Assembly (NCBI RefSeq): GCF_002886045.1
Contig: NZ_CP025791.1
Span: 2,867,001-2,931,000 of the forward strand
DNA: 64,000 bases
Direction of reading: 5' to 3'
DNA from: Flavivirga eckloniae
Lineage (GTDB): Bacteria > Bacteroidota > Bacteroidia > Flavobacteriales > Flavobacteriaceae
Under the pieces are notes generated by a model, which was not told where the DNA came from, did not search any database, and saw only the letters and a program-made list of their open reading frames with translations. The position numbers and the translations under genes were made by a program. Positions 9,476 through 53,137 of this stretch are shown one piece after another. Within the stretch, counting starts at the first letter, position 1. Each line of letters starts with the position of its first letter.

Positions 9476-9483
9476 ATTAACTA

Positions 9484-12400: not shown

Positions 12401-13767
12401 GTAAAAAACGTCATATAACTGTTGAAATATTGAATTCTGATGACGACATAACAACCTGGTTCGATCCAAATGCCGTTGAAAAAATATTAAATAATTTATT
12501 ATCTAATGCCATAAAATTTACGCCAGACAATGGGATCATTATCATTGAAATTTCTAAAGTAAAAGAAAACCAAATCAATGATTCTGTATTAAAGGATTAT
12601 TTAGTTATTAAAGTAAAAGATTCAGGTCCTGGTATTAAGCCAGATAAAATCAAACATATTTTTGATCGTTTTTATGTGGATAAAAGACCAACCAAAAAGC
12701 AAGGTTCCGAAGGTGCAGGTATTGGGCTTTCCTATGCTAAAAAATTAGCAGAATTACACCAAGGATTCTTAGATGTTGAAAGTAAGCACAACGAAGGAAG
12801 TACTTTTACATTTAAGCTTCCATTAAACAAAGAGGATTATTTATACATTCCCAATATAAGTTTTGAATCTGAGGATAAAACACTCGGGTTTATGATGCCT
12901 AAGAATACTAGCAGCTATAAAAGAGATGTAAACGACGAAATTATTGATAAAATATTCTCAAAAAGAAGGTCGAAATTACCAATACTTTTAGTTGTAGATG
13001 ACCATAGCGAAATAAGGGATTTTATTTCCCAAACCTTAAGCGAACAATACAATATATATCATGCCGAAAATGGGAAAGAAGGTTTAGAAGCTGCAAAATA
13101 TTTGCAACCTAACATTATACTTACAGATATTTTTATGCCTGTAATGGATGGGTTTGAGTTCTGTAAACAACTTAAAACGAAACAAGAAACCAGTCATATT
13201 CCAGTTGTAATGATTACTGCAAAAGCATCAGAAGAAAATGAGGTAGAAGGCTTTACAAACGGTGCAGACGACTATATTAGAAAACCTTTTAATATCGATT
13301 TATTAAAACTTAAACTCTCTAATATTCTAGAACACCGTGAACAATTAAGAAAACAATTTAACAGAAAAATAATATCGCAACCTAAAGATGTAGCAGTAAC
13401 ATCTGCAGACGAAAAGTTTTTACAACAAGCTATTGAGATTATAGAAAAACACATGATGAATACAGAGTTTAATGTTAAAGTTCTGGTTAAAGAAATGAAT
13501 TTTAGCCGTTCAAACATTTTTATGAAGTTTAAAGAACTAACAGGTTTGTCTTCTGGAGAATTCATTAGAAACATTCGTTTAAAACGCGCTCTACAGCTTT
13601 TAGAAACAAGTGATTTATCTGTAAAAGAGATTATGTATATGACCGGTTTTAACACAGCATCTTACTTCTCAAAATGCTTTAAAAAACAATTCGGGGTTTT
13701 GCCTAGTCAGTACATTAAAAAAATGAAAACTGAAGAGAAAATGGGCGAAACTCAATTTGATAAATAA
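9484..13767 (+). CDS. Hybrid two-component system sensor kinase/AraC regulator
   Basis: The product is 1427 residues. An N-terminal signal/anchor is followed by a periplasmic two-component-propeller region (WFATHDGLNKYDGY, WIGTTNGVN, WVGTKGGGVNK and others; about 45-740). A Y_Y_Y domain (about 760-825) and one transmembrane helix (about 829-850) follow. The cytoplasmic part has HisKA with SHEIRT (His889), an HATPase domain (NNLLSNAIKFTP, GAGIGLS), a receiver with phospho-acceptor Asp1215 in LTDIFMP and Lys in RKPF, and a C-terminal AraC-type HTH (about 1320-1415). All catalytic residues are present. Such one-protein systems sense a ligand outside and switch on the adjacent SusC/D locus. The probable target is the susC promoter region, with positive control inferred. 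The gene begins 8 bases after the FG-GAP gene. Confidence 0.95.
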   Translation: MIIRNVKLVVRIFWAKKLLGMFLFVFCLFLPRISTSQNLGYFERITTDNGLSQSDINQIHQDKDGFMWFATHDGLNKYDGYSFKVFNLELNKPGSITSNLIYDIEEDKDGNFWIATTGGGLMFFDRSTEKFTTYKYEKDNTKSLNSNYLATIYRDRENRLWIGTTNGVNMLDLEKSKDSVEFQRFKAQREPYIVGGPNIQAVNTIFEDSKGQLWTGGFRGLYKLSREPNGDMYFRHVNKDLNLPNNSVRFIGEDNDARLILATDEGLYYQTQDRDSLVIKKVIEEVVNSFIIDNNNNMWVGSENGLLYLKRNPNLEFPKLSKRFTYDPRNPNSISKNNISSLYKDRTGIIWVGTKGGGVNKTDLERKQFKHIRKDLNQNSLSHDNVKAFFEDSHGNTWVGTEGGGLNMIKKNSDYKEIINFNSIPKVFTITEIKRGAKKFLLFGGENAGLFELDITNPNKIEENDIALIPGINTSVFSLLFDSSGVLWIGTYNSGVYRWSPKQKEGTYVKDNFSFDQNNPKSISNDIIRDIFEDSKGNIWFGTGDGLSWLSKKEVAKKHPKFEVYKNIPGDTTSLSHNYILPIYESNKGDIWIGTFGGGLNKVIPQPGNNSLKFKRYSQKDGLPNKIIKSILEDEVGNLWISTNKGLSKFDPELNTFKNHNVNDGLQNNEFQELASLKRKNGEMLFGGINGFNVFFPKNLIENTFEPETMITDFLISNESVSVREKINNRVILKKTISKTQEINLKYFENNISFEFAALHYAASQKNQFAYKLEGFDEDWEQTPSNKRFASYTNLEPGSYTFYVKATNNDGLWDNTPSQVKIYISPPFWLSNIAYFVYSLILIGLLIAFRKYTIINTTKKHQLELEHFEKEKNEELQQLKIEFFTNISHEIRTPLTLIKGPLEYLQQSYDRLDKKNVLQQFNLMQKNTDSLLRLVNQLLGFRKMDKGKMMLTLYKSNIVEFINELIEPFQFHCKKRHITVEILNSDDDITTWFDPNAVEKILNNLLSNAIKFTPDNGIIIIEISKVKENQINDSVLKDYLVIKVKDSGPGIKPDKIKHIFDRFYVDKRPTKKQGSEGAGIGLSYAKKLAELHQGFLDVESKHNEGSTFTFKLPLNKEDYLYIPNISFESEDKTLGFMMPKNTSSYKRDVNDEIIDKIFSKRRSKLPILLVVDDHSEIRDFISQTLSEQYNIYHAENGKEGLEAAKYLQPNIILTDIFMPVMDGFEFCKQLKTKQETSHIPVVMITAKASEENEVEGFTNGADDYIRKPFNIDLLKLKLSNILEHREQLRKQFNRKIISQPKDVAVTSADEKFLQQAIEIIEKHMMNTEFNVKVLVKEMNFSRSNIFMKFKELTGLSSGEFIRNIRLKRALQLLETSDLSVKEIMYMTGFNTASYFSKCFKKQFGVLPSQYIKKMKTEEKMGETQFDK

Positions 13768-27586: not shown

Positions 27587-29731
27587 CTAAATTTCTTGAG
27601 GCAGACCCGTAGCAATACTATCCAAAATCTTAAATGTGGTTAATGTTGTCAAATAAATCGATTCAAAAGGAATAGGAGAATCTTTATTTGACTTTAAGGA
27701 ATCTATAAAGGCTTCTACCTCTTGTTTGTGACCCTTTCCATCGATTTTTAACTTTGATATTTTATTAGATTCATGTATTTCACCACTCCTAAAATCATGG
27801 ATTCTTCCAATTTTACCACCAGAGAATACCTCCACTAATTCTTTTGGCAAAGATTTATCTCCATTTCCTAAGTACAATAAGTTTCCAATTGAGCCATCTT
27901 CAAAAGAAACAGTTATTGAGATATTATCTTCGGGAGTCAATTTAGTATTTTCTGTTTTAATACATGCAGCATATACTTTAATTGGCTTTGATGAAGTAAA
28001 AAATTGCATTAAATCAATAAAATGGCACATTTCCCCTATTACTCGACCTCCTCCAATGTTTGGATTCTGTGTCCAATGCTCTTTGGGTAAAAAACCAGCA
28101 TTTATTCTAATATTAATAACCTTAGCCTCACTATTTTTAGAGAAAGTTTCATTGATTTTTTCTGCAATTAAAGAAAACCTTCTATTAAAACCTACCATTA
28201 ATTTCGATTCACTGTTTAAGTAAACCTCCTTAACTTTTTCTAATTCATCTAAATTCATGGCTAAAGGTTTTTCTACAAAGACGTGCTTCCCTGCCTTTAA
28301 AGCTTCTATAACATAAGAACTATGTGAATTGTGTGGTGTTGCAATAAAAACAGTATTTATTTTTGAATTATCTAAAACATCTTTAGCATCAGAGGATGCT
28401 TTGTCAAATTCAAATTTCGAACCTACATTTTTTGCTGAAATCCCTTTAGTTGTGACTACTGTGTCTAAAGAAGCCCCTTGTTTTTTTACATGAGGAATTA
28501 AATAACTTTGCGCAAAACTCCCTGCTCCTATAAATCCAACATTAATATCGCTAATACTTGAACTTGAATTTAAAGAAACTAAACTACTTTCTTTGTCTTC
28601 ATTATCACTATACTTTAATAAAATCCCAATGTGAGGTTCTTCAGTTTTACCTAGCACAATGTCATATGCTTTCTCAGCTTCATCTATATTGAAAACATGT
28701 GTAATAAGATTCTCTAGTTTAATAGCTCCTTGAGAAATTAAACTTAAAAAAGTCTCCATATTTCTTTGTTCAGTATATCGAACATAAGCATAAGGATAAT
28801 CTTCACCATCTTCTTCGTATTTTGTATCATAACGGCCAGGCCCATAAGAACATGACATTTTCAATTCTAACTCTTTGCGATAAAAATCAGGATCTCTTGG
28901 TATATCCATTTTTACAGCTCCTACAACAACAACTTTTCCCTTTTTTCTACTAATAATAGCAGAAAGTTCAATAGGATCATTAGAAGGTGCAGCTGCGGTA
29001 ATAATAACACTATCAAAACCATGTCCTTCAGTAAAACTATCTATTGACGTAAGCAAGTTAGGATCATTTCTTAAAAGAGCCTCTTCCGCACCACTTCCTA
29101 TTGCTAGGTCAACCAAATTTTTAGATAAGTCTATTCCATAAACCTGACATCCGTTTGCTCGTAACAATTGGACAGTAAGCTGTCCAAGCAATCCTAAACC
29201 TATAACACATACCTTGTCTCCCAGCCTTGGTTCTGCTTGTCGTACTCCTTGTAAAGCAATTGCGCCTAATGTTGTAAAACTAGCTTCCTTAAAGGATACG
29301 TTATCTGGTATTTTTGCCACAAGGTTTTGGGGCACCCCAACAATCTCAGAATGAGATGCATAATCTTGACCAGCGCATGCAACTCGATCCCCAGGTCTAA
29401 ACTTACTTTCACTATCCAATGAGGTTAGAACTACCCCAGAAGTACTATACCCTAGTGCTTTTAAGGAATCCAACTTAGTCTTAACTTTATCAATAGTAGC
29501 TTTTAGTCCCTCTTTTTTAATATTTTGAAGTACTTGAGCCACTAAGTCTGGTCGTTGTTTAGCTTTTCCTATAAGACTCGCTTTTCCAACTTTTACAGTT
29601 CCCCTTTCTGTTCCTGCACTAATTAAGGAAAATTTATTCTCTACCAACACCATATTATTAGAAATTGAAGGTTTTGGAACCTGATCGACATAAAGTTCTC
29701 CTGTTTTAAAATTTTGTATAACTTGTTTCAT
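27587..29731 (-). CDS. Fused zinc-type alcohol dehydrogenase / Gfo-Idh-MocA oxidoreductase
   Basis: The product is 714 residues with two dehydrogenase domains. The N-terminal MDR part (about 1-365) shows LISAGTERG, PGDRVACAGQDYASH and the Rossmann loop VIGLGLLGQLTVQLLRANG. The C-terminal Gfo/Idh/MocA part (about 395-714) shows VGFIGAGSFAQSYLIPH, ATPHNSH and the VEKPLAMN catalytic-lysine motif. Such bi-domain oxidoreductases recur in polysaccharide clusters of Bacteroidota, leptospires and proteobacteria and may carry out coupled redox on a nucleotide or carrier-linked sugar; no reaction is assigned. The gap to the upstream membrane gene is 4 bases. Confidence 0.85.
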   Translation of the reverse strand: MKQVIQNFKTGELYVDQVPKPSISNNMVLVENKFSLISAGTERGTVKVGKASLIGKAKQRPDLVAQVLQNIKKEGLKATIDKVKTKLDSLKALGYSTSGVVLTSLDSESKFRPGDRVACAGQDYASHSEIVGVPQNLVAKIPDNVSFKEASFTTLGAIALQGVRQAEPRLGDKVCVIGLGLLGQLTVQLLRANGCQVYGIDLSKNLVDLAIGSGAEEALLRNDPNLLTSIDSFTEGHGFDSVIITAAAPSNDPIELSAIISRKKGKVVVVGAVKMDIPRDPDFYRKELELKMSCSYGPGRYDTKYEEDGEDYPYAYVRYTEQRNMETFLSLISQGAIKLENLITHVFNIDEAEKAYDIVLGKTEEPHIGILLKYSDNEDKESSLVSLNSSSSISDINVGFIGAGSFAQSYLIPHVKKQGASLDTVVTTKGISAKNVGSKFEFDKASSDAKDVLDNSKINTVFIATPHNSHSSYVIEALKAGKHVFVEKPLAMNLDELEKVKEVYLNSESKLMVGFNRRFSLIAEKINETFSKNSEAKVINIRINAGFLPKEHWTQNPNIGGGRVIGEMCHFIDLMQFFTSSKPIKVYAACIKTENTKLTPEDNISITVSFEDGSIGNLLYLGNGDKSLPKELVEVFSGGKIGRIHDFRSGEIHESNKISKLKIDGKGHKQEVEAFIDSLKSNKDSPIPFESIYLTTLTTFKILDSIATGLPQEI

Positions 29732-29735
29732 TTCT

Positions 29736-31781
29736 TTATAATTTTATTCTTTCTATCGAAAGCTTTTTTAATAATTTCTTTCCTTTCTTTATGTCTACTA
29801 AACCAAATCTAAAAGACTCATATTTTTCTAATTTTGGCATAAATATTTTCTTAATTACGGGTTTTCCAAATTCTTTACTAATATTAAACTCTGACAAATC
29901 AAAATTTTCAAAACCATGTTCAATTCTATCAGAAGGTAAAAATTTCACATCTTCCTTATAACTGTAAGCATGGAAATATATATATTTATTTTTTAATAAT
30001 TCTAAATTCGAAAACTCTTCAAGTATTATTGATAACTCGTAACCTTTACTATTTAATCTCTTTATTTTTATCTGTTCTAAAACCAATTGATTGGCCAACA
30101 CAACTTTTTCCTTATATAATGTTTGTGAATTGTCAACTTTTAGGTTTTTATTATAAAAAACAAAATAATCTCCATATTGTTCGTTAGTGTCATAATATGT
30201 TGGTAAAATAAAATTACTAAACTGATAATAATTATCACACCGCCTATCCACCAAAATGACATCGTTATATGATAATCTTTCTGTAAAAGTCATTATCTTC
30301 TCTTTATAATTAGCTTTTACAAAATAGATATCAGAAGATATATTTGTTTGTAAATTAGAATAATTATCCAAGATCGATTTATTTATATTAATATAGCCCA
30401 TATTTCTTTTTTCTAAATCGGGCACCCTATGAATTGCCTTATGAATATTGGATATCTTATTAGGGAACAAATAATTCTTTTGCCCATAAATCTCTGGAGT
30501 ATATAGGACCAAAATTATCACTACACCTATATAATAAGATGCTTTTAAATATTTAAAGTCCTTTTTCTTTTGAAATGCATGAAAAACAATAGATAATAAA
30601 GAACCTACCAAAAACAAAAATGGGATATAAAAAGGAACAAGGTTTCTTTCTAAAAATTCTACCTGTTTCATTAAACCAAATAAAGATAATAGTAATACAA
30701 ATAAAATAATCCCATACTTTACTCTCTGTTCTTTTGAAGCATATTTAAAACCAAAGTATACTATAAGTGGAACTAAATAAATAGCGTAACCCATTAACGC
30801 TCTTAAATTAGTAACTGTTCGATAGAAATTATATAACAGCCCTGTTGTACTCTTATTACCTGCCTCTAAACGTTGTCCATTACTATAATTCCAAAAATTA
30901 GAAACAAAATCATGTAACATTTCATTAAAAGAACCAAAAAAACCATACCAATTTATCAATATAAAAAAAACAATAAAAGAAACTGTTATAGTAAGAATCT
31001 TTTTTAAAAGAACTTCAAAAGAAAACTTATCCTCTTTATTAAGAAATGGTACAGCACAAAGTAACAATACGAAAAACAAAGAAGAAAACTTTACTGAAAT
31101 GATAAAAGCGCTAACAAAGCCTATAAATATCATCATAAAAGAAGAAATTTTTCTTTTTTGAAACAAATACAAAAATAGGGAAATGACTATGCTTATAAAA
31201 CCAAGTAGGAGAGGTTCTATATAAGCATACCCCTGTTCATTACTTAGTTGTGAATTCAGACTTGGAAAAACTATTAAAAAAACCAAAGCGAAGTAATACT
31301 TATGTTTATAACAATAAAAAAGCAAAGGTATCATGCATACAAATACGAATAATATACTTTGTAGTCGCAAATAGTAAAAAAAATCCCTAAGATTAGGATC
31401 TTTCTCAAGCCTTTGTTTAACCTCGTGAGCACTTATATCTTTATTTAAATAATTTTCTAAGATATATTTATGTCCAACTCTAGACCAACCAGAAATAGCT
31501 GTATTTCCTCCCATTTTTTGAGACATCTTTATTAGGGCTCCAGGGTAAAAAAGACGATACATCCAACGCCCGCCTTCCAAAGCTCTAAAATTATCCACAT
31601 GTCCCGTCTTTATAGATTTAATTGCTAACAAAACCGTATGATATTCATCATCATGATAACGAGTCAAATTATTATCCAAATAATTCTTTCTTACTCCTAC
31701 CAATAAAAACAAAGCAACAAGTAATATAATCGAAAACCTTATATTATTATTCTTAGTTAAATTCAATAATATATTTTTCAT
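29736..31781 (-). CDS. GT-C-type integral membrane glycosyltransferase
   Basis: The product is 681 residues. An N-terminal helix is followed by a periplasmic loop with the acidic motif RYHDDEYHTV (about 41-50), the expected catalytic position in GT-C enzymes. About ten further helices follow to residue 440, then a roughly 240-residue soluble periplasmic tail. GT-C proteins use polyprenyl-phosphate sugars on the outer face of the inner membrane. With the GT2 and GtrA proteins encoded at 34.5-35.6 kb, a side-branch transfer is plausible. The acceptor and donor cannot be read. Remote homology to PMT/ArnT-type enzymes is by pattern only. Confidence 0.7.
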   Translation of the reverse strand: MKNILLNLTKNNNIRFSIILLVALFLLVGVRKNYLDNNLTRYHDDEYHTVLLAIKSIKTGHVDNFRALEGGRWMYRLFYPGALIKMSQKMGGNTAISGWSRVGHKYILENYLNKDISAHEVKQRLEKDPNLRDFFYYLRLQSILFVFVCMIPLLFYCYKHKYYFALVFLIVFPSLNSQLSNEQGYAYIEPLLLGFISIVISLFLYLFQKRKISSFMMIFIGFVSAFIISVKFSSLFFVLLLCAVPFLNKEDKFSFEVLLKKILTITVSFIVFFILINWYGFFGSFNEMLHDFVSNFWNYSNGQRLEAGNKSTTGLLYNFYRTVTNLRALMGYAIYLVPLIVYFGFKYASKEQRVKYGIILFVLLLSLFGLMKQVEFLERNLVPFYIPFLFLVGSLLSIVFHAFQKKKDFKYLKASYYIGVVIILVLYTPEIYGQKNYLFPNKISNIHKAIHRVPDLEKRNMGYININKSILDNYSNLQTNISSDIYFVKANYKEKIMTFTERLSYNDVILVDRRCDNYYQFSNFILPTYYDTNEQYGDYFVFYNKNLKVDNSQTLYKEKVVLANQLVLEQIKIKRLNSKGYELSIILEEFSNLELLKNKYIYFHAYSYKEDVKFLPSDRIEHGFENFDLSEFNISKEFGKPVIKKIFMPKLEKYESFRFGLVDIKKGKKLLKKLSIERIKL

Positions 31782-31798: not shown

Positions 31799-33901
31799 TC
31801 AATTAGAAATTTTCTTTTTTATATAGTATAACAAAAAGGTTTGTAAAAAGCCTTTATAATTATCTTCCCATATTGGATCTTCAATAAAATCTTCTGCATT
31901 ATCTACTATAACATAAGCTGTTTTTTCTACCTCTGATAAGGTAATCTTACCCTCCACTTCTAAACGCTGAGAATCAGTATCATAAAAATGTTTTACCTGA
32001 ATGGCATTAATACTATTGAATTTTTCACAAAAAAAGTTTAAATCAATACTTGTGTCACAACTTATCATGAGTCCAATATCTACTTCCTCACCATTACCAA
32101 CCTCGAAATTATTATTAACTGGATAATACGATATCTTAATATCTGCGTGTTGTGATTGTGATTGTATATATTTTACAGAATCTTCTCTTCTAAATTCTAA
32201 TTGACTTATTACTTCTTCTTTTGAATACCCTCTTTTCTTCATATCCCTATTTATCTTCCAATGAAGCCTTAAATCTTCAGTAGGGCTTACAAAAATTTTA
32301 ATGTCAAATAATTCTCGTTTAGCCAAAATATAAAAAGGGTGTAAGCCTTCAAATAAGATAACTTTGTTTGGATATATAGTGAGAGGCTTGGTAAATGTCC
32401 CAGTATTATGGTCGTAATGCCTCCTTAATATTTTCTTTCCTTCTTTTAAGGCTTTTAATTGATTGATTTCTTCATGAAGGTTATTGGCTTTTGGAGACAA
32501 ATGTGTATGAGTTTCCCACATGGCGTGACCTCTTTCCCATTTATGCATGTCATCTCCTCTTAAAATAGTCATATTATCTTTTGCAAATAGATTTTGTATG
32601 GACGCGGTTAAAGTACTTTTTCCAACTCCAGAATCTCCACCAATACCTATCAAGCAAGGAGCATTTTTAATTTTTGCTTTTACATTTTTAGTAATTCCTA
32701 TTCTATATATCCAAAATATATTAATAAACAGTAATACTTGTAATCCTGTAAAAACGATATTAATAAGCATATCTGCATTGAGATCATAATACTCTAAAAC
32801 AGTATATAAGGAAGTATTATCTTTGCTTAAAATATAAAGGTTTGCGAAATCTGAATCGGGTATAATTGCAAAATAAATAAGATAAAAGATCTGAAGAGCC
32901 AAAAGAGGAAAAATACTTAATTTACTTTCTTTAATATAGAAATAAATTAAGAAAGGAATTATCCAAAAATACCACCCAGGCTTAGGCGGAATAAAGAGGA
33001 GTAAAGAGCAAAAAGCGAATCCAATAAACATCATAAAAAGATCTTTACTTAATTGCTTATATCTAATAACTTTTGCTAATAATAGCACATAAATTGCTGG
33101 AACTACGTAGAAAAACAGTTTACCGAAACCGATCTTAAAATCTAATAATTTAATCTGTTCTTTATTTTTAAACACAAGTGTAATAAATTCCTCATCAAAT
33201 AAATAATTAATATTTAAGAGAAAAAAAGCACCAAAAACCAAAAAGAAAGCAATGGATACACTCTGTATTTTTCTGTTAGGATTATTAAACTTCCATAAGT
33301 AAATAAAAAAGAAAGGCAATGCTATTAATAAATTAGTCTTAGTTGCTAAACCCAATCCCAATAGCACACTTGCCATAATAAACTTTTTCTTAAATAAAAA
33401 GAAAAAGGAAACAAATAAAAACATTATAGGAAGAACATCGAACTGCCCATGCAAATAATTAATATAAAATAATACTGGTGAACACCAATATAGTAACAAA
33501 AGTTTATTGTCTGCTTTTTTTAAAAACCTACTTAAAACAACTAAAACAGTTATATCTGCAAGCAATAGGGGCACTCTGAATAAAAAAGACTGTAGCACTA
33601 TGGAATCTTGAAAAAAGAAGCTATATGTACTTTGTATATATAGCATTAATGCAGGGTAGGGGAAAAAATCGAATTTTTCTAAATTGAAAAAATGCTCATA
33701 AGGATTACTAAACCCTGTACTGGAAAAATAATTTACAAAAGGTATAAACTTGTTTTTTAACAAATCACCTATAAAGAAAAAAGGTGCTACTAATTTAATA
33801 ATCAACCCGATTACAAATAATCTGTGTTTTAAAATAGTAAGTTTATATTTTCCTAATTGATCATAAAGAACTTTTTTTTTATAACCTATTATACTTCCCA
33901 T
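31799..33901 (-). CDS. Fusion of GT-C-like membrane domain and uridine-kinase-like kinase
   Basis: The product is 700 residues. The N-terminal 400 or so form about ten transmembrane helices with a GT-C-like first loop (NPYEHFFNLEKF) and HGQFDVLPIMFLFVS. A cytosolic P-loop kinase of the uridine kinase/phosphoribulokinase type follows: Walker A GIGGDSGVGKST (about 418-429), LRGDDMHKWERGH, and an acidic VILFEGLHPF. The reading frame is unbroken across the junction. The kinase should phosphorylate a small hydroxylated substrate such as a nucleoside or pentulose-like sugar; the membrane part should transfer a lipid-linked sugar. The ATG at 33901 is preferred because the in-frame start at 33928 overlaps the upstream gene by 40 bases. 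The overlap from 33901 is 13 bases. Confidence 0.75.
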   Translation of the reverse strand: MGSIIGYKKKVLYDQLGKYKLTILKHRLFVIGLIIKLVAPFFFIGDLLKNKFIPFVNYFSSTGFSNPYEHFFNLEKFDFFPYPALMLYIQSTYSFFFQDSIVLQSFLFRVPLLLADITVLVVLSRFLKKADNKLLLLYWCSPVLFYINYLHGQFDVLPIMFLFVSFFFLFKKKFIMASVLLGLGLATKTNLLIALPFFFIYLWKFNNPNRKIQSVSIAFFLVFGAFFLLNINYLFDEEFITLVFKNKEQIKLLDFKIGFGKLFFYVVPAIYVLLLAKVIRYKQLSKDLFMMFIGFAFCSLLLFIPPKPGWYFWIIPFLIYFYIKESKLSIFPLLALQIFYLIYFAIIPDSDFANLYILSKDNTSLYTVLEYYDLNADMLINIVFTGLQVLLFINIFWIYRIGITKNVKAKIKNAPCLIGIGGDSGVGKSTLTASIQNLFAKDNMTILRGDDMHKWERGHAMWETHTHLSPKANNLHEEINQLKALKEGKKILRRHYDHNTGTFTKPLTIYPNKVILFEGLHPFYILAKRELFDIKIFVSPTEDLRLHWKINRDMKKRGYSKEEVISQLEFRREDSVKYIQSQSQHADIKISYYPVNNNFEVGNGEEVDIGLMISCDTSIDLNFFCEKFNSINAIQVKHFYDTDSQRLEVEGKITLSEVEKTAYVIVDNAEDFIEDPIWEDNYKGFLQTFLLYYIKKKISN

Positions 33902-34485
33902 TTTACAACATTTTTGTATTTGGTGCAAATTGCATCGAAGGTTATTCTTTCTCGTTTTAAATAGTCTTTATAAGTTAAGATATCACTTTCTCTACCTTGC
34001 AATTCTGGCGATACTAAACACAACTTATAACCCATAGATTTAAGCTCTTTAAAAATCTTAAAATTGAGTGGTAATTTAGTAAAGCAATCTACCCAAATCC
34101 ATTTTACTTTTCCTTGCATGGCTCTTACAGTATCGAGTCCTTCAAATTCAGAAAACCTGATAGCTATATTCTCTTCTCCTTTTTTTGATAATAAATAAAT
34201 CATTGGAAAAGAGCTATCTAAAAAAAAATATTTCTGAATATTATATTTTTTAAGTAAACATAATATTTCTCCTTCTATACGTTCACTTTTAACGTTTAGA
34301 ATCATTGTTCCGTGTTTATAAGCCTTTAAGTATCGTTCAAATAACTCTCCAGAGACAAAAGGATCATGGCTTATATATATATTGCCATTTAAATCATCTC
34401 TTAAGTCAATTTCTACACCAAAACTTTCTGGTAACTCATTTAGCTCTTTGATGGTATTAATTCTATGAGCAATATATTCTATCAT
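33889..34485 (-). CDS. GDPD-like TIM-barrel phosphodiesterase
   Basis: The product is 198 residues. Glycerophosphodiester phosphodiesterase hallmarks are visible: IAHRINT (catalytic His), VEIDLR (metal-binding Glu-x-Asp), ISHDP (His-Asp) and LNVKSE in place of the usual LEIK. It is shorter than typical GDPDs (about 240-300), and the last barrel strands are abbreviated. The expected chemistry is cleavage of a glycerol- or polyol-phosphodiester, or a lyase-type reaction; the substrate is unknown. It lies between the GT2 gene (4-base overlap) and the GT-C/kinase gene, so it is translationally coupled to both and probably belongs to the same sub-pathway. Confidence 0.72.
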   Translation of the reverse strand: MIEYIAHRINTIKELNELPESFGVEIDLRDDLNGNIYISHDPFVSGELFERYLKAYKHGTMILNVKSERIEGEILCLLKKYNIQKYFFLDSSFPMIYLLSKKGEENIAIRFSEFEGLDTVRAMQGKVKWIWVDCFTKLPLNFKIFKELKSMGYKLCLVSPELQGRESDILTYKDYLKRERITFDAICTKYKNVVKWEV

Positions 34486-35180
34486 TTTAAGCTTTTTTTC
34501 AATTTAAAACTAAAATCAAATGTTCTTTTAATAAATTTCCACTTAGATTTTATACCCGTGTTCCAAGAGGATGATCCGTGGATTCTCTCTGGAAATAAAA
34601 CATCAAACCTTATGATTTTAATTTTTAGTTTTTTGGCGTAATATAGCGCATAGAGGTCTAAGGAAAAATCATTTGGCGCATTTTCCCATTGTTTAAAAAA
34701 TGTTCTGTGAAAAATGTTAGGTTGTGCATTAATATCCCAGAGTTTTTTTCCCATATATATGGTTTCGAAAAAGCTCATTCCTGAAGTAAAAAACTGATCC
34801 AAAAACGGTCTCCCTTTTCGGTTTCCTTTTATGTATACCTGTTTTTTGTCCTGATTTTCAATAATCTCTATAGCTTTAATAACGTCCTTAGGGTCAGTTT
34901 GCATATCGGCATGTGTCCATCCTATATATTCTCCCTTCGCCTCATGTAAGCCAGATATAACCCCAAAACCATATCCAATATTTTTTTCAACTTTTACAAG
35001 TTTAGCAAAAGAATAATTTGGTAATAATCTTTCAAAAACATTTGTACTATCATCGGTCGACCCATTATTTACTAAAATAACTTCAATATCACTTCTATCA
35101 ATGACATCATTAAACCTAGAAAGTATTAATTGGATATTTTTTGATTCATTGTAACAAGGTACCACTATTGATAATTTCAT
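34482..35180 (-). CDS. Glycosyltransferase family 2, polyprenyl-phosphate sugar synthase type
   Basis: The product is 232 residues. The GT-A fold begins LSIVVPCYNESKNIQLIL, with NNGSTDDS, and the metal-binding motif THADMQTDP (DxD-like). The short length and lack of C-terminal helices match DPM1/GtrB-like synthases that place a sugar on polyprenyl phosphate at the cytoplasmic face. GtrA is encoded 2 bases upstream, the usual partner for flipping the product. It probably feeds the GT-C proteins encoded downstream. Confidence 0.85.
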   Translation of the reverse strand: MKLSIVVPCYNESKNIQLILSRFNDVIDRSDIEVILVNNGSTDDSTNVFERLLPNYSFAKLVKVEKNIGYGFGVISGLHEAKGEYIGWTHADMQTDPKDVIKAIEIIENQDKKQVYIKGNRKGRPFLDQFFTSGMSFFETIYMGKKLWDINAQPNIFHRTFFKQWENAPNDFSLDLYALYYAKKLKIKIIRFDVLFPERIHGSSSWNTGIKSKWKFIKRTFDFSFKLKKSLK

Positions 35181-35182
35181 AA

Positions 35183-35581
35183 CTAATTTTCTTTAAAAAC
35201 CCAATATTTTTGACCCATAAAATTTAAAATAGTACTCGTTCCCGTAGCACATAAAAAGGCTAACAAGGTGTTTTTTAAAATACTTAAAACCATAGTATTT
35301 ACCGTAACATTAACGCCCAAAGTAATTATGTATAATATCATAAACATCCAAAACTGCTTCGGTGATCTCTGTTTTTGTTCAAAAGTCCATAATTTATTAA
35401 TTAGATAAGAAACTATTGTTCCAGAAAAAAATGAAATAAATTTTGCAACAGCATATTTTATATCTGTAAGTTCGACAAACATAAAATAAACTATAAAATC
35501 TACAAAAACAGCCAAAACACCTACGCATACGAATCTTAGCAATTGTTTTTTTATTTTTGGATCAAACTTTATTATTCCCAT
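35183..35581 (-). CDS. GtrA-family membrane protein
   Basis: The product is 132 residues with four transmembrane helices (LLRFVCVGVLAVFVDFIVYFMF, AKFISFFSGTIVSYLINKLWTF, FWMFMILYIITLGVNVTVN, LAFLCATGTSTILNFMGQKYWVF). The C-terminal NFMGQKYWVFK is the family signature. GtrA proteins are thought to flip polyprenyl-phosphate-linked sugars to the periplasm. The gene overlaps the tandem nucleotidyltransferase gene by 10 bases and is followed immediately by the GT2 gene. Confidence 0.9.
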   Translation of the reverse strand: MGIIKFDPKIKKQLLRFVCVGVLAVFVDFIVYFMFVELTDIKYAVAKFISFFSGTIVSYLINKLWTFEQKQRSPKQFWMFMILYIITLGVNVTVNTMVLSILKNTLLAFLCATGTSTILNFMGQKYWVFKEN

Positions 35582-37215
35582 TCTTGGTCAAAACTAGAAT
35601 ACTCTTTTTCAATTACCGAAATTGCTTTTTTATTCATAGTAATATCTTTTTCCAATCTATACGAATGCCAATCCACTTTATGAAAAAAGCTCTGCCAATA
35701 CTTATACGTTTTATAATCGTTTGGTGTTCCCCAGCAAATATAATTGTCTATTTCAAATACTTTTACATTAAGTCCCATATTTACTAATTCTTCTATACAG
35801 CTATCTACATAAAACTCTCCGTTTACTCTAGTGTTTTTTTCATACATCTTATTTAGTGCATTCTGAAAATGCAAACCTTTTCTAAAATAGAATGTGCCTA
35901 CAATTGCATGATCTTTTCGAGGGGTTTCGCTAATAGCTTTTTTAACGCTAACACCAGTAACTTTATCACCTTCGGTTTTTATCCAACCGTACATTTCAGG
36001 GTTTCTCTCGCTTGATGGGTGATCTCTAAATGACCATATGATAGCATCCACAGATTTATTCTTAAGTAATGTTTCATACTTTTTTTCATTCCATAACATA
36101 CCATTATCGCAAGCGGCTATTAATAAAGGTTTTTCTAGATCTTCACCCTTTAACCCCAATTCGCAAGTACAAGCCTGCCCTTCAGTAACTTCATTTAAAG
36201 AGATTATTTTTGACTCAGGAAATTCTTTTTTTATTTCTTGAGTTAAAGGGTAGTCCTTTAAGTGGTCTTCTAAGCAAATAAAAATATGGTTATTTGCGAT
36301 AGGTAGATAATTGGATGCCTGAATAATCATAGGCTTCCCAGAAACATCAATTAAAGGCTTTGGGTTTTTGTATCCCTCATTAACAAATCTACTTCCTTTT
36401 CCTGCTAAAGGAATCATATTAATTGAACCGTTTTCAGATTTAGGTTTTGTACGTTCTTCAATAATTTCTTCAAAATAATCAGAAAAACCTTTGTATTCTT
36501 TCACATCTTGTGGAGTTCCCCATTGAAGCATGTGTTGAATTTCATAAATTGATACAGACAGTTTGTCGTTAACTAAAAGATTATAAATTAAACTAACATA
36601 ATATTCTCCATTAAGATTAATATCTTCATCTATAAGTTGTTTGAAATACTTTTTTACATAAGCTCCTTTCTTAAAATAATAAGTACCCATAGATGCGTAT
36701 TCTTCCATACGATTATCTGTAAAAGGTTCCTTTTCCTTAATTTCTAACATCCATTGTTTATCATCTCGCATAAAAGCATAATTTGTGGTGCCTAACATAT
36801 GTGGATGAAATCCCTTATAGGCAGGAACTGCACCATCTGCACTTCTATTTCGGGTATGCGACAAGAAATCTTGAAAGTCCCAATAACATGCAAAATCACA
36901 ATAATTCACAATAATTTCTTCCTCATCATTTATCAATTCTTGTACTTGTTGCACAGCATATACCGGGCCTTTTTTATGAGGAGATATCTCAACCACAACA
37001 CCTTTTGGTGCTATTTTATTCAAGACAGTTCGCATGTTTGTTTCCTGCAAATGTTTACTATTACATATAAATATGAAATCTTCCTCTCCAGGAAACATAT
37101 TAACCACATGCTCTATAATAGGTGATCCATTAATTTTAATCAAAGGTTTAACATCTTTGTAACCAGCATTCACAAATCGTTGCCCCATTCCCGACATTGG
37201 CACTATTATCTTCAT
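35572..37215 (-). CDS. Tandem-domain sugar nucleotidyltransferase
   Basis: The product is 547 residues made of two nucleotidyltransferase domains in series. Domain 1 begins KIIVPMSGMGQRFVNAGYK (residues 1 to about 245). Domain 2 begins INMIPLAGKGSRFVNEGYK (from about 265). Both carry the G-x-G-x-R-F nucleotide-binding loop followed by KPLI, and both keep an acidic metal-site region (NYCDFACYW in the first, AACDNGMLW in the second). Both also end in a GEFYV or GEYYV segment and a WGTP motif. The repeat therefore spans the whole domain. It probably activates a phosphorylated sugar or polyol with an NTP; two domains could serve two substrates. It lies 3 bases downstream of the aldolase gene. Confidence 0.78.
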   Translation of the reverse strand: MKIIVPMSGMGQRFVNAGYKDVKPLIKINGSPIIEHVVNMFPGEEDFIFICNSKHLQETNMRTVLNKIAPKGVVVEISPHKKGPVYAVQQVQELINDEEEIIVNYCDFACYWDFQDFLSHTRNRSADGAVPAYKGFHPHMLGTTNYAFMRDDKQWMLEIKEKEPFTDNRMEEYASMGTYYFKKGAYVKKYFKQLIDEDINLNGEYYVSLIYNLLVNDKLSVSIYEIQHMLQWGTPQDVKEYKGFSDYFEEIIEERTKPKSENGSINMIPLAGKGSRFVNEGYKNPKPLIDVSGKPMIIQASNYLPIANNHIFICLEDHLKDYPLTQEIKKEFPESKIISLNEVTEGQACTCELGLKGEDLEKPLLIAACDNGMLWNEKKYETLLKNKSVDAIIWSFRDHPSSERNPEMYGWIKTEGDKVTGVSVKKAISETPRKDHAIVGTFYFRKGLHFQNALNKMYEKNTRVNGEFYVDSCIEELVNMGLNVKVFEIDNYICWGTPNDYKTYKYWQSFFHKVDWHSYRLEKDITMNKKAISVIEKEYSSFDQEWE

Positions 37216-37218
37216 TTC

Positions 37219-38286
37219 TTATAAGTTTTGTCTGTATTTTTCTGCCTCCCAATTCCCTAAATATGAAATCTCACTATTATCTAAAAAGACAATGTCTTCT
37301 TTGGTTTCCTGAAGTATCATAAGATTGTTTTTACACACATCTTCAATCATTTTTGCTTTTTTCAAATCCTTAGATACAATATAAAGGAACGAGTTAAAAA
37401 CAATAAGTTTTGGCAATTGCTTATATTCATTTATATACTCCAAAATACTATTACTTCCTTTGTATTCTAAAGCTTTATACCCACAAAACACATAGCCATC
37501 AGGACAAAATGGCTTCTTAAAAAACAGTTCTTTGGCAGTTTTTAAAACGTTGTTGATATATTCATCTTCTGATAAATATGTCGTCAAAACTTCTTTAGAG
37601 TATTTATTGATCTCTTTTGATAAGAAGTTTGTTATCTTGTAACGTGAAAAATCGATCTTTAGAAAAATCTCTACTTTACTTATAAAGTTTTCTGTCAATT
37701 CTTGAATACTTTCAAAATCATCTGATGTGATTATTAAACCATGATTTTGAAGGCAAATTATAGATGGTTTGCAATTACACCTGTTTTCATAAAGAGTTAT
37801 TTCCTTTTTCATTTCGATCGCTAAATCGATTCCCGGAGTCTCATAATTCACAAATAAAATATCTGGAGCTATATTTTCTAATAATAATTTCCAATTCTTA
37901 ACCGAAGTTAACATATTCACAGCAATGGCATGGACATGCAATGTATACTTGCACAGTATTGCATGTAAATATGTTTCTATGGACGGCCTAGGTCCTTTTA
38001 CTGTTTTAGCATTATTTACAGCTTCCGCCCCTTTTTGATCTCTTAAACGTTTATTCGTAATATTAATAATCTTTGGATCTTCAATAATATTCAAAATTTT
38101 TGCGTTATCGACCAAAGCATATCCCGTATTCTCATCTACTTCTGACAATAAAAAACCAGAAGCCTTAATAATCATTTCACCATTATCTAATTTTACCGAT
38201 GTATTACCTCCCCCTGCTTGAATAAGATCGTATCTTTCTCCTGCGTAATTGGACATTGCTATAAATTTTTCTAATTCTTCTTTCAT
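37219..38286 (-). CDS. Class II aldolase/adducin-family protein
   Basis: The product is 355 residues. The N-terminal aldolase domain (about 1-225) shows GGGNTSVKLDNGEMIIKASGF, GPRPSIETYLHAIL, the zinc pair in LHVHAIAVN and a third His in LQNHGLI, so the metal site is intact. It resembles the aldolase half of bifunctional rhamnulose-phosphate aldolase/dehydrogenases. About 110 residues at the C-terminus have no recognised domain. Retro-aldol cleavage or condensation of a phosphorylated keto-sugar is expected; epimerases of this fold also exist. The gene overlaps the HAD gene by one base (stop/start) and precedes the nucleotidyltransferase, suggesting a connected pathway. Confidence 0.75.
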   Translation of the reverse strand: MKEELEKFIAMSNYAGERYDLIQAGGGNTSVKLDNGEMIIKASGFLLSEVDENTGYALVDNAKILNIIEDPKIINITNKRLRDQKGAEAVNNAKTVKGPRPSIETYLHAILCKYTLHVHAIAVNMLTSVKNWKLLLENIAPDILFVNYETPGIDLAIEMKKEITLYENRCNCKPSIICLQNHGLIITSDDFESIQELTENFISKVEIFLKIDFSRYKITNFLSKEINKYSKEVLTTYLSEDEYINNVLKTAKELFFKKPFCPDGYVFCGYKALEYKGSNSILEYINEYKQLPKLIVFNSFLYIVSKDLKKAKMIEDVCKNNLMILQETKEDIVFLDNSEISYLGNWEAEKYRQNL

Positions 38287-38981
38287 TATAAAATATTTAT
38301 TATCTCCTTAAAATTAGAAACAGCAATTGCCCCTAAAGGGAGCTCTTTATTCTCATTTTTATGATTTATCCATATACCTTCAATTCCAAAGTTATAAGCA
38401 CCCAAAATATCTTTATCCCAATTGTCTCCTATCATTACCGATTCCTCTTTTGTGCATTTTAGTTTATCAAGAGCCTTGTAAAACATTATTGGATGAGGCT
38501 TTTCTTTTCCAGCCTCCTCACTGGACACTATAAAGTCAATGTGATTTTCTAATCCCAATTTATTGATTTTACGAAATTGGATGTGAGCCGTCAAATCGGT
38601 CAAAATACATATCTTTCTATTTTGAGACTTTAATTTGTCAAATAACTCTGAAACCCCCTCAAAAAGCGTCATGTTATCCAAAAAAGTCCCCCAGTACAAC
38701 TCATAACATGGTAATGTGTTATCTATCGAATTCATTTCTAAACTTTCAAAGGTTTTTTGAAAATACAGCAATCGATTATGAGATGAAGCCGTATTCAACA
38801 AGTCTAAATGTGTGCGTTTTCTAGAAGTATTGAAAGCCTTTAAAACTATTTCTTTAGATAAATTACTTTTCTCTTTTAAAAAAGAGATTACTTGTTCCAT
38901 AGCTAAATTATGAGCAATATCATAGTTATAAAGCGTATGATCCAAATCTAAAATTATATGATTTTTGTTTTTGTGGGACAT
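38286..38981 (-). CDS. HAD-superfamily hydrolase (sugar-phosphate phosphatase type)
   Basis: The product is 231 residues. The nucleophile motif is ILDLDHTLYNYD (DxDxT), motif II is ILTDLT, the conserved Lys is in GKEKPHPIMF, and the metal-binding acid motif is MIGDNWDKDI. A helical cap lies between motif I and II, as in HAD subfamily IA. All catalytic residues are present. It probably removes phosphate from a small metabolite made by the neighbouring aldolase or kinase, but the substrate is unknown. It is the first gene after a 44-base gap, and the aldolase gene follows with a one-base overlap. Confidence 0.82.
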   Translation of the reverse strand: MSHKNKNHIILDLDHTLYNYDIAHNLAMEQVISFLKEKSNLSKEIVLKAFNTSRKRTHLDLLNTASSHNRLLYFQKTFESLEMNSIDNTLPCYELYWGTFLDNMTLFEGVSELFDKLKSQNRKICILTDLTAHIQFRKINKLGLENHIDFIVSSEEAGKEKPHPIMFYKALDKLKCTKEESVMIGDNWDKDILGAYNFGIEGIWINHKNENKELPLGAIAVSNFKEIINIL

Positions 38982-51411: not shown

Positions 51412-53100
51412 TTAATTAAGTATTTGTTTTAATATGGTTCTTGTTATTAAATATGTTGGTCTTACTCCAGAAGTCCCTAGGCCTCCAGACGCAAGCGTTG
51501 CTCCTGTTTCTAAAGGGTTATCGCTAGCATAATAAGCATACCTTACTTTTACACCAGAGCTGATACTTCCTCTAACTTTCGAAGCTGCCTGAATCGCTTT
51601 TTGATAGTGAGCACCCTCCATTTCTAATCCTATTACTTGCCATGTTGAATTGTAAAAGAACTTTAAAATATCCTTGTTTTGCAACGATGTTCCTAAAACA
51701 GTAATCATAGATCCTTCATAAATATCGACTCCTTGTCCTTCTAAATCTTCCTTCTTAAGTTCATTTGTAAAAGGGTAATTATCAGCTGTGCCTTCAAAAA
51801 TATGTGCCGAAGGTATCATAATATCACCTTTACCTCCTTCTAAAATGCCCGCTTTACCCATAATCGATACCGATTCCACATTTAAATAAGTCTTCTTGTC
51901 GTTATTATTATATGGTTTCAATAGCTCGTCAATGGTTTCATACGCTTGTTCTCCAAAAGCATAATCCATGACTAATATAACAGGTTTGGTTTGTTTTAAT
52001 AGGGCTTCGTTAACGCTTATATCTATTTTAGAGATATCTATTTTACTAGTATCAAAAATTTGCACATCAATATTGGTTCCAGATGTATCTTTAATATAAA
52101 ACATCCCCCGTTGTAACGCTTCTTTATTTACTTTATTTCGAAGTCCTTCATTTTCATTTTTGCTTAAAGACTCGTATACTTCAAAAATATCCTTTTTAGA
52201 TGTCACCGATTTTAATGCATTTGATGCAAAAAGTGTATTCATAACACTATGCATATTGGCACTTATTATATGTATAGGCCTTTCTAATAATTCGTTTTTA
52301 AATAATACTTCTTTTATTGAATCCGCCCAAATTTCTCCATGTATGTGATGACCAATACGTTCTCTTAATACAGGACTAAATGTTACTGTTCTTTTATTAT
52401 TATGTACCTGTTCCTCTATGGCTAATTTTCCTAGCCAATACACAATATGAAGCAACCTTTCTGGTTGTAGCGGTGTAGCAAACTCGCCGTAAACCGTTCT
52501 TAACTCATTAAAAGTTCTTCCTAAAATATTAGCGACATGAGTTATAGCAACTTCGCGCTCTTCCTGAGTTAGCTTCTTTTTTGATAAAACCGCTTTTTCC
52601 AACTTTATCCAATCTCTTGTCGTTGCTCCTTCCTCATCAATTAAAACGCGATTACTTATTTTATGAGATTCTATAAAAAGAAATGTAAGGTGTGTTAAAA
52701 TATCATAGATTTCCGATCGTCCTCGGGTAATCTCAATATTCATTTGTTCGGCATCTATTCTATAGCAATTACGGCGTCTTTTTTCTGGAATTATAGGCTT
52801 GAAATGAGAGTTTCCATAGCCTTCATCACTTGTTAAATTAATAAATGTACATTCTTCAATTCCAATAGGAAGCCTATCTATGACATAAAGTAACCCCTCT
52901 AATTCGGCTTTTTCTTCTCCTATAGAACCATATATTTCGGGACGTAACTGCAACAAAGACTGCCGTAAAGTTTCACCAGAAACACCCATAGGCTTGTAAA
53001 AGCCTCTGTTAAATAAATGGCGCATAGTAATATACATCCTCTCAATGGCATTCGAACTCTCTTGAGCTCTCGTTCTAGCATGATGTTTTATATTACTCAT
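51412..53100 (-). CDS. DUF6909-family protein with nucleoside-phosphorylase-like C-terminus
   Basis: The product is 562 residues, with no signal peptide or membrane helix. The N-terminal half is helical (ARTRAQESSNAIERMYITMRHLFNRGFY). The C-terminal half (from about 370) is alpha/beta with VILVMDYAFGEQAYETI, SIMGKAGILEGGKGDIMIPSA, and IGLEMEGAHYQKAIQAA near residue 490. The MEG motif and the preceding GDIMIPSAH segment resemble purine/uridine phosphorylase active sites, which is pattern-based inference. I recall this family as DUF6909, of unknown function. The ATG at 53100 is preferred; an in-frame TTG at 53163 overlaps the GH3-like gene. Confidence 0.65.
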   Translation of the reverse strand: MSNIKHHARTRAQESSNAIERMYITMRHLFNRGFYKPMGVSGETLRQSLLQLRPEIYGSIGEEKAELEGLLYVIDRLPIGIEECTFINLTSDEGYGNSHFKPIIPEKRRRNCYRIDAEQMNIEITRGRSEIYDILTHLTFLFIESHKISNRVLIDEEGATTRDWIKLEKAVLSKKKLTQEEREVAITHVANILGRTFNELRTVYGEFATPLQPERLLHIVYWLGKLAIEEQVHNNKRTVTFSPVLRERIGHHIHGEIWADSIKEVLFKNELLERPIHIISANMHSVMNTLFASNALKSVTSKKDIFEVYESLSKNENEGLRNKVNKEALQRGMFYIKDTSGTNIDVQIFDTSKIDISKIDISVNEALLKQTKPVILVMDYAFGEQAYETIDELLKPYNNNDKKTYLNVESVSIMGKAGILEGGKGDIMIPSAHIFEGTADNYPFTNELKKEDLEGQGVDIYEGSMITVLGTSLQNKDILKFFYNSTWQVIGLEMEGAHYQKAIQAASKVRGSISSGVKVRYAYYASDNPLETGATLASGGLGTSGVRPTYLITRTILKQILN

Positions 53101-53137
53101 TTGTCTTTTTAATTCCCCAAATATAGTACTATTTGGC

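Follow-up and report, generated by a model that had tools for sequence, protein, structure and literature searches.

A phosphoribulokinase-type kinase fused to a GT-C-fold membrane domain in Flavivirga eckloniae and the gene cassette around it

Introduction

Why should a cytosolic kinase for small molecules be part of the same polypeptide as a membrane domain that resembles glycosyltransferases working outside the membrane? This question is raised by a gene of Flavivirga eckloniae (Bacteroidota; Flavobacteriaceae) at positions 31799..33901, on the minus strand, of a stretch of 64,000 nucleotides (contig NZ_CP025791.1, positions 2,867,001 to 2,931,000), here called the window. The gene codes for 700 amino acids, a GT-C-type membrane domain followed by a kinase of the phosphoribulokinase (PRK) type. 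A first-pass annotation, made from the letters alone, had called the kinase uridine-kinase-like and had suggested that it either makes a product for a lipid-linked donor pathway or recycles a nucleoside released by transfer. Two enzymes, PRK and RuBisCO, are regarded as belonging to the Calvin cycle alone (PMC5241800), though the same paper reports PRK, together with RuBisCO, in methanogens. Here, we describe that the kinase is related to PRKs, that the fusion is real and old and that it stands in a conserved gene cassette, from which a function outside the Calvin cycle may be proposed.

Results

The fusion and its homologues

The frame runs from an ATG at 33901 to the stop codon at 31799 of the minus strand (700 residues plus stop); a TTG at 33928 would be an alternative start and add nine residues, and the plus-strand frame of the same stretch has many stops. 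The single unbroken frame had thus been placed correctly in the first-pass annotation, in which the strand was not stated. A search with six peptides, three of them from the kinase domain, in one genome per species revealed 27 homologous loci in Bacteroidota, Patescibacteria, Aenigmatarchaeota, Alphaproteobacteria and a spirochete symbiont; such a search reaches close relatives, and 27 is a lower bound. In 26 of these loci the protein is encoded by one frame of 674-722 amino acids. Since they come from different species, the fusion is no assembly artefact, but real and old. The only locus that could speak for two genes joined by an error of assembly or sequencing is L047 (8001-10168, from a metagenome-assembled genome (MAG) of the Rickettsiaceae), in which adjacent frames of 379 and 330 amino acids are found and the last membrane helix stays on the kinase. 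In the tree, however, the L047 kinase is nested within the fused clade, which points to a secondary split or a sequencing error; it is the only split version among the homologues, and the chance of an artefact is negligible. Standalone kinases of the fusion subfamily were not found among the 27 loci, despite the three search peptides derived from the kinase. The pairwise distances of the two domains correlate with r 0.918 (27 rows), a value reached in none of 2000 permutations, and their mean distances are alike (0.541 and 0.524).

A model of the fused protein, calculated with AlphaFold2 from the window sequence aligned with those of 26 homologues, consists of two mostly well-predicted domains (mean predicted local distance difference test score (pLDDT) 86.0, predicted template modelling score 0.77). 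The pLDDT falls below 50 at the substrate loop of the kinase, residues 453-458.

The kinase is of the PRK type

PF00485, the family of PRKs and uridine kinases, matches residues 417-596 of the fused protein with 153.4 bits (E 8.9e-45; cut-off 22). The Walker A sequence GGDSGVGKST, seen already in the first reading, is indeed intact (residues 422-430, GDSGVGKST, 32612..32638 of the minus strand), and S424, G427 and K428 are invariant. The question is on which side of the family this kinase stands. The NCBIfam model PRK07429 (phosphoribulokinase) gives 213.1 bits over residues 412-668, under its cut-off of 236, so that the kinase is not filed in that subfamily; the uridine kinase model udk gives 88.8 bits against a cut-off of 220.3. 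All 27 members match PRK07429, with a best E of 6.5e-64, and all match uridine kinase models, with a best E of 5.1e-28. A sequence search of the PDB gave 21 chains, and the ten at the top were PRKs; among them is 9qkn, whose deposited name is 'Uridine kinase' but whose title speaks of a cyanobacteria-specific PRK. The first 19 Foldseek matches are PRKs as well, and 9qkp_B aligns with Z 26.9 over 278 residues (413-700), the C-terminal domain included. The PRK-type kinase with its PRK C-terminal domain takes up residues 413-700 (31802..32665, minus strand).

The residues of 28 fusion kinases, from the window and the 27 loci, were compared with those of a control set of 5 PRKs and 20 uridine kinases. 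H453, H498, K549, R571, D574 and Q582 are present in all 28 fusion kinases and all 5 PRKs and in none of the uridine kinases; R457 has the same distribution except for one of the 20 uridine kinases. D450, H453, R457, Y496, H498, K549 and R552 do not vary among the fusion kinases. Going by their positions in the motifs, D450 and H498 are the counterparts of the catalytic dyad of PMC9978339, and H453, R457, Y496, H498, K549 and R552 those of residues that PMC5241800 assigns to the substrate or to ATP. The active-site motif D450-G458 reads DDMHKWERG in the window (32528..32554, minus strand) and is present from D450 to R457 in 28/28, where the PRKs compared have DDYHxxDR or DDYHxxNR. Conversely, the residues typical of uridine kinases at the positions of D451, H453, H498 and D574 (S/A, Y, F/Y and M) are absent from the fusion kinases. 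In a tree of 40 rows the 28 fusion kinases form one clade (100/99), which is joined with the PRKs against the uridine kinases (100/100); the tree singles out no sister lineage among the PRKs.

Judged from its sequence, the kinase is of the PRK type within PF00485 and not of the uridine kinase type, and the earlier name has to be given up. The same holds for a function in recycling, in which a uridine or nucleoside kinase would salvage the nucleotides that transfer sets free. Such a function could be argued from the common Pfam family, but it is hardly credible, since uridine-kinase residues are missing, PRK residues stand at the Tyr, Phe/Tyr and Met positions in 28/28, and the tree and the scores point in the same direction. 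In addition, the genome has an ordinary udk gene of its own (G000:C1:1510609). As for class II/cyanobacteria-specific PRKs (6gve, 6hzk, 9qko, 9qkn), the fusion kinase shares with them the fold over its full length, the Ru5P (ribulose-5-phosphate) and catalytic residues and the position in the tree, but it differs by the GT-C domain, the motif DDMHKWERG, the score under the PRK07429 cut-off, a glycan-type cassette and the fact that RuBisCO was not found with the fusion.

The membrane domain has a GT-C fold

A hydropathy scan marked ten hydrophobic segments in residues 21-401. Three of these overlap, so that the earlier count of about ten helices is approximate. The fold comparison of the N-terminal domain (residues 22-407, 32681..33838, minus strand) gave a Z of 29.6 (351 aligned residues, 3.6 Å) to GPI mannosyltransferase I with Dol-P-Man (9wno), followed by ALG3 (Z 27.8), ALG6 (25.9), PIG-U (25.0) and PimE (20.3). 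Pfam, at E 0.01, found GT87 in eight, Alg6_Alg8 in one and ALG3 in one of the 28 N-terminal domains. For GT87 (PF09594) the window protein reaches 18.3 bits, under the cut-off of 25, and is therefore not filed as GT87; the protein of L023, a locus of Eudoraea adriatica, is above it (30.6). No transporter family was among the Pfam matches of the 28 domains at this threshold, and a plain transporter, which had been named as the finding that would speak against a GT-C domain, was rejected. With the whole protein, ABC_tran gave a weak match (22.4 bits, under its cut-off of 25), which sits on the P-loop of the kinase and was discarded too. The predicted structure supports a GT-C transmembrane fold for the N-terminal half, as had been suspected from the sequence.

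A profile of the 28 members found two matches among the sequences of the PDB, both GPI mannosyltransferase 1, the better with E 0.023. The donor-sugar residues of Gpi14 include Glu140, Lys173 and Trp322 (PMC12653191). In this weak alignment they are paired with D155, K188 and W313, which all 28 members keep (D155 as D or E); Gln318 of Gpi14 meets a Gly, and the phosphate ligands His239 and Arg242 are without clear counterpart. These comparisons speak for the fold and for a donor-like pocket; transfer by the GT-C domain is putative.

One observation weighs against an active transferase: the first outer loop, which carries the catalytic acid in the reference enzymes (D39 in Gpi14, D69 in ALG6), has no conserved acid in the fusion, the best column being acidic in 18/28 and Asn50 in the window. 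The usual catalytic acid is not conserved and, therefore, the domain could bind the donor without catalysis. It might then be a membrane anchor or sensor that binds a polyprenyl-phosphate sugar and tunes the kinase, comparable to PIG-U, which is among the closest folds; in PIG-U the catalytic DxD is replaced and a different mechanism has been suggested (PMC12653191). We regard such a sensor as quite improbable, because D155 (acidic in 28/28), K188 and W313 are kept, as far as the weak alignment can be followed, the GT-C domain is conserved as much as the kinase and the other close folds belong mostly to transferases. Taken together, the fusion resembles GPI mannosyltransferase I (PIG-M/Gpi14), ALG3, ALG6 and PimE/GT87 in its fold (Z 20-30), in L023 by a GT87 match above cut-off and possibly, if the weak alignment is right, in the acid, Lys and Trp of the donor site, but lacks their conserved outer-loop acid and carries a cytosolic sugar kinase.

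A gene cassette travels with the fusion

Inspection of the flanks of the 27 loci (tblastn, E 1e-4) revealed an aldolase-like gene in 25, nucleotidyltransferases in 25, a GDPD gene in 23, a HAD gene in 22 and a GT2 gene in 21; with the window proteins alone the numbers are 25, 24, 19, 22 and 21. The aldolase-like gene begins at most 200 bp downstream of the fusion in 21/27, and the HAD gene lies within 200 bp in 13/27. Several absences are at contig ends (for example L027, L038, L043), but others, those in L024, L041 and L042 among them, are not; in L024 neither HAD, GDPD nor GT2 was found. The cassette has seven genes in the window and four in L042. In the latter (7300-12634) HAD, GT-C/PRK fusion, aldolase-like enzyme and double nucleotidyltransferase stand by themselves; judged by eye, the genes around them have nothing to do with glycans, and this quartet therefore looks like the core. 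In a comparison of 395 genomes of the same phylum, for which scoring was limited to the few best first-look candidates of each genome, a full-length aldolase-like gene (E <1e-79; other matches >1e-32) was found in three genomes, the same three in which the full fusion was found. Between HAD and fusion, L026, L032, L039 and L043 have a small protein (123-137 amino acids), by eye of the GxxExxY type.

The partners in the window are all encoded on the minus strand. The HAD phosphatase (38286..38981) has a model for ribulose-1,5-bisphosphate (RuBP) 5-phosphatase, NF053830, as best NCBIfam match; all 23 HAD members match it (best E 3.7e-59; next family 2.6e-38), and within its own genome the protein scores 174.4 bits, the next match 58.7. 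Its best solved relative by sequence profile is N-acylneuraminate-9-phosphatase. NF053830 seems to be named after the haloarchaeal RuBP phosphatase, which, according to PMC9700705, converts RuBP to ribulose-1-phosphate, the substrate that a FucA-type enzyme then cleaves to dihydroxyacetone phosphate (DHAP).

The class II aldolase-like enzyme (37219..38286) has E104, H117, H119 and H182 invariant in 26 members. By the FucA pattern we take E104 to be the catalytic Glu and H117, H119 and H182 the zinc-binding His triad. Models for bifunctional aldolase/short-chain dehydrogenases match 26/26, the rhamnulose-1-phosphate aldolase fusion model 24/26, methylthioribulose-1-phosphate dehydratase 18/26 and ribulose-5-phosphate 4-epimerase 10/26. 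Since aldolase, epimerase and dehydratase models each match some members, the exact product is not fixed by the sequence. Two nucleotidyltransferase domains are combined in one protein in the window (35572..37215), whereas most loci have a gene for each, A and B. A and B are two old clades (24 and 23 rows); 23 of 24 sources have one A and one B and L024 has only A, and the two are fused in the window, L023 and L042. Their best solved relative, 4evw, is named only nucleoside-diphosphate-sugar pyrophosphorylase, and the second domain has a weak match (E 0.0035) to proteins of 6-deoxy-heptose pathways.

The GT2 (34482..35180) is closest to the dolichol-P-mannose synthase 5mlz (E 9.5e-13) among solved structures, followed by chondroitin synthase, sll0501 and, lower, ArnC-type transferases. 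It adjoins a GtrA/DPMS transmembrane-domain protein (35183..35581); a GtrA-type gene is beside the fusion in only 2/27 related loci (tblastn), and looser clustering adds L044. The remaining partner is a protein of 198 amino acids (33889..34485) whose gene overlaps the start of the fusion by 13 nt. Its model (pLDDT 95.6) supports a TIM-barrel GDPD fold, and Foldseek matches 1-13 are all GDPD-type (best E 7.6e-8). PF03009 (GDPD) did not match the window protein and matches 3/22 members; R8, E25, D27, H40 and K66 are invariant and H7 nearly so, residues that follow what we take to be the catalytic His/Arg/Glu/Asp/His pattern of GDPD enzymes.

Other genes of the window

The locus is of the capsule or O-antigen type, with an initiating sugar transferase, two UDP-sugar dehydrogenases, a UDP-GlcNAc 2-epimerase, a WecG-type transferase and two Wzy_C proteins, one over and one under cut-off. 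Directly downstream of the fusion lies a gene for a protein of 681 amino acids (29736-31781), which matches nothing in Pfam or NCBIfam at E 0.01 and, among the 27 loci, was seen again only in L023 (31% identity). In the same operon (27587-29731) a zinc-dehydrogenase domain is fused to a Gfo/Idh/MocA oxidoreductase. Further away, a protein (53138-54631) of GH3, the family of the plant auxin-amido synthetases, adjoins a DUF6909 protein (51412-53163).

Discussion

From domains, conservation, residues and gene association, all of which are observed, we infer a series of reactions in which a membrane-tethered kinase of the PRK type, acting outside the Calvin cycle, supplies a sugar for a polyprenyl-phosphate carrier that the fused GT-C domain uses or binds. 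We give this proposal slightly less than an even chance. On the cytosolic face, the kinase domain would add a phosphate to C1 of Ru5P, or of a ketose phosphate very like it, and so make RuBP; this substrate is suggested by the conserved residues. The HAD enzyme, going by its nearest family, would take off the C5 phosphate to give ribulose-1-phosphate, and this ketose-1-phosphate would then be cleaved, epimerised or dehydrated by the class II aldolase-like enzyme. One or both nucleotidyltransferases may activate the product, the GT2, in the genome of the window together with GtrA, may put the sugar on undecaprenyl phosphate, and the GT-C domain may transfer it outside the membrane. The idea of a kinase product for a lipid-linked donor pathway had been put forward before, and the association with nucleotidyltransferases, GT2 and GtrA is consistent with it. 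A narrower version, that the fused PRK makes RuBP and that this is the first committed step to a nucleotide-activated, polyprenyl-linked sugar derived from a pentulose, spread across bacterial phyla and DPANN archaea, is possible, with the balance of our judgement tipping somewhat against it. In the literature on surface glycans, pentuloses occur as xylulofuranose in chlorovirus N-glycans, and no biosynthetic link was found.

Several points weigh against this scheme, beyond the outer-loop acid discussed above. Ribulose-1-phosphate is not an anomeric phosphate, and its activation would therefore be unusual for the nucleotidyltransferase family. The haloarchaeal ribulose-1-phosphate aldolase model is matched by only 10/26 aldolase-like members (best E 4.8e-6), and the window HAD, with 175.1 bits, is far under the NF053830 cut-off of 330. 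Nor is the cassette uniform: some partners are on the opposite strand in L040 and L044, only the aldolase-like gene is beside the fusion in L041, and by tblastn GT2 and GDPD are missing in L042 and the aldolase-like gene in L039 and L043. In the kinase itself, M452 (Y in PRKs), W455, E456 and R493 are invariant, peculiar to the family and different from all 5 PRKs; the changes M452, W455 and E456 are in the substrate loop and, thus, the substrate may not be Ru5P.

The architecture could then be the same with a kinase whose substrate is some other phosphate of a sugar or sugar alcohol, such as a different pentulose 5-phosphate or a pentitol phosphate; RuBP would never be made and the HAD enzyme would remove a different phosphate. 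Besides the four peculiar residues, the scores argue for such a substrate, since the kinase is under the PRK07429 cut-off and the HAD and aldolase-like proteins of the window are under equivalog cut-offs. We consider it rather unlikely: the nearest model of the HAD is an RuBP phosphatase, and the counterparts of the residues that bind the phosphate of Ru5P or take part in catalysis, mapped by motif position from PMC5241800 and PMC9978339, never vary, with the exception of MhPRK Arg62, which its source paper calls not conserved.

The kinase, the HAD and the aldolase-like enzyme could also form a catabolic shunt like the haloarchaeal pentose bisphosphate pathway, in which Ru5P would be converted via RuBP and ribulose-1-phosphate to DHAP and glycolaldehyde and the glycan genes would be merely co-located. 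Haloarchaea are described as having the two final steps (PMC9700705), and all 26 aldolase-like members keep the catalytic Glu and the residues that bind zinc. But the two nucleotidyltransferase clades travel along, even in L042, outside an evident glycan locus, the fusion to a GT-C domain would be hard to explain and the match to the ribulose-1-phosphate aldolase model is weak. A shunt of this kind is very unlikely.

A role in the Calvin cycle was rejected, as the own genome has no match to RuBisCO. RuBisCO was not found in 26 of the 27 genomes of the related loci either, many of which are incomplete MAGs. The one exception also weighs against a pathway outside the Calvin cycle: G465, the genome of L037, has a partial RuBisCO_large match (68.5 bits, C43:34070-34576, positions 1-171/299), which could be a RuBisCO-like protein. 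In the 395 genomes of the phylum, the only other strong match of the kinase (L053, 1561-2538, in G095 of the same class) is a standalone PRK of the cyanobacteria-specific type. By eye, its neighbours look like the large and small subunits of RuBisCO, a possible Calvin cycle in the G095 lineage. Weak matches of the kinase domain (G039:C3:96251-96784, E 5.5e-6; G055:C1:983836-984498, E 7.6e-9) lie in frames of about 632 amino acids from the same order, which are probably other, unrelated fusions of a uridine-kinase-like domain.

The distribution of the fusion is patchy. Among 60 relatives, 11 of the same genus, the full-length protein was found only in its own genome, and other matches cover the kinase part only, with 24-34% identity, or part of the membrane domain. 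The full fusion is present in 3 of the 395 genomes of the phylum, the own one included, and in 3 of 286 genomes of the phylum of G453, all of them already known as L025, L028 and L029. Apparently, the gene was spread by horizontal transfer, which we regard as likely.

Nucleotide-activated heptoses are made by a kinase, a GmhB-type phosphatase and the nucleotidyltransferase HddC. The order that we propose would be the same, with a phosphate added at C1, the terminal phosphate removed and activation to follow, and the second nucleotidyltransferase has its weak similarity to 6-deoxy-heptose proteins; kinase and sugar are different, however, and the class II aldolase-like enzyme and the GT-C fusion are additional. 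The window operon also resembles the GtrA/GtrB/GtrC and split DPM synthase systems in having GtrA, a polyprenyl-P-type GT2 and a GT-C domain together, but here a kinase is on the GT-C protein and GtrA is rare among the related loci. With the haloarchaeal pentose bisphosphate pathway it has in common an HAD whose nearest model is the RuBP phosphatase and a partner of the class II aldolase family, but RuBP would arise here from Ru5P via PRK and not from ribose-1,5-bisphosphate, and nucleotidyltransferases and genes for lipid-linked sugars follow. The PRK of methanogens (PMC5241800) is likewise a PRK outside photosynthesis, but its product goes to RuBisCO; the kinase described here is joined to a GT-C domain, and no RuBisCO was found with it.

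The protein is to be filed as a PRK-type kinase of PF00485, neither a Calvin-cycle PRK nor, by cut-off, PRK07429, on a GT-C fold that by cut-off is not GT87. Both domains are of known kinds; as far as the open-licence literature shows, their combination, the motif and the cassette are undescribed, and no paper that came up in searches of open-licence PMC names the fusion or the cassette in its title or at the beginning of its abstract. The cassette is small and can be tested directly, enzyme by enzyme. If the proposal is true, PRK could no longer be used as a marker of CO2 fixation, RuBP would gain a biosynthetic role and the pentose phosphate pathway would give rise to glycan building blocks that are unknown so far.

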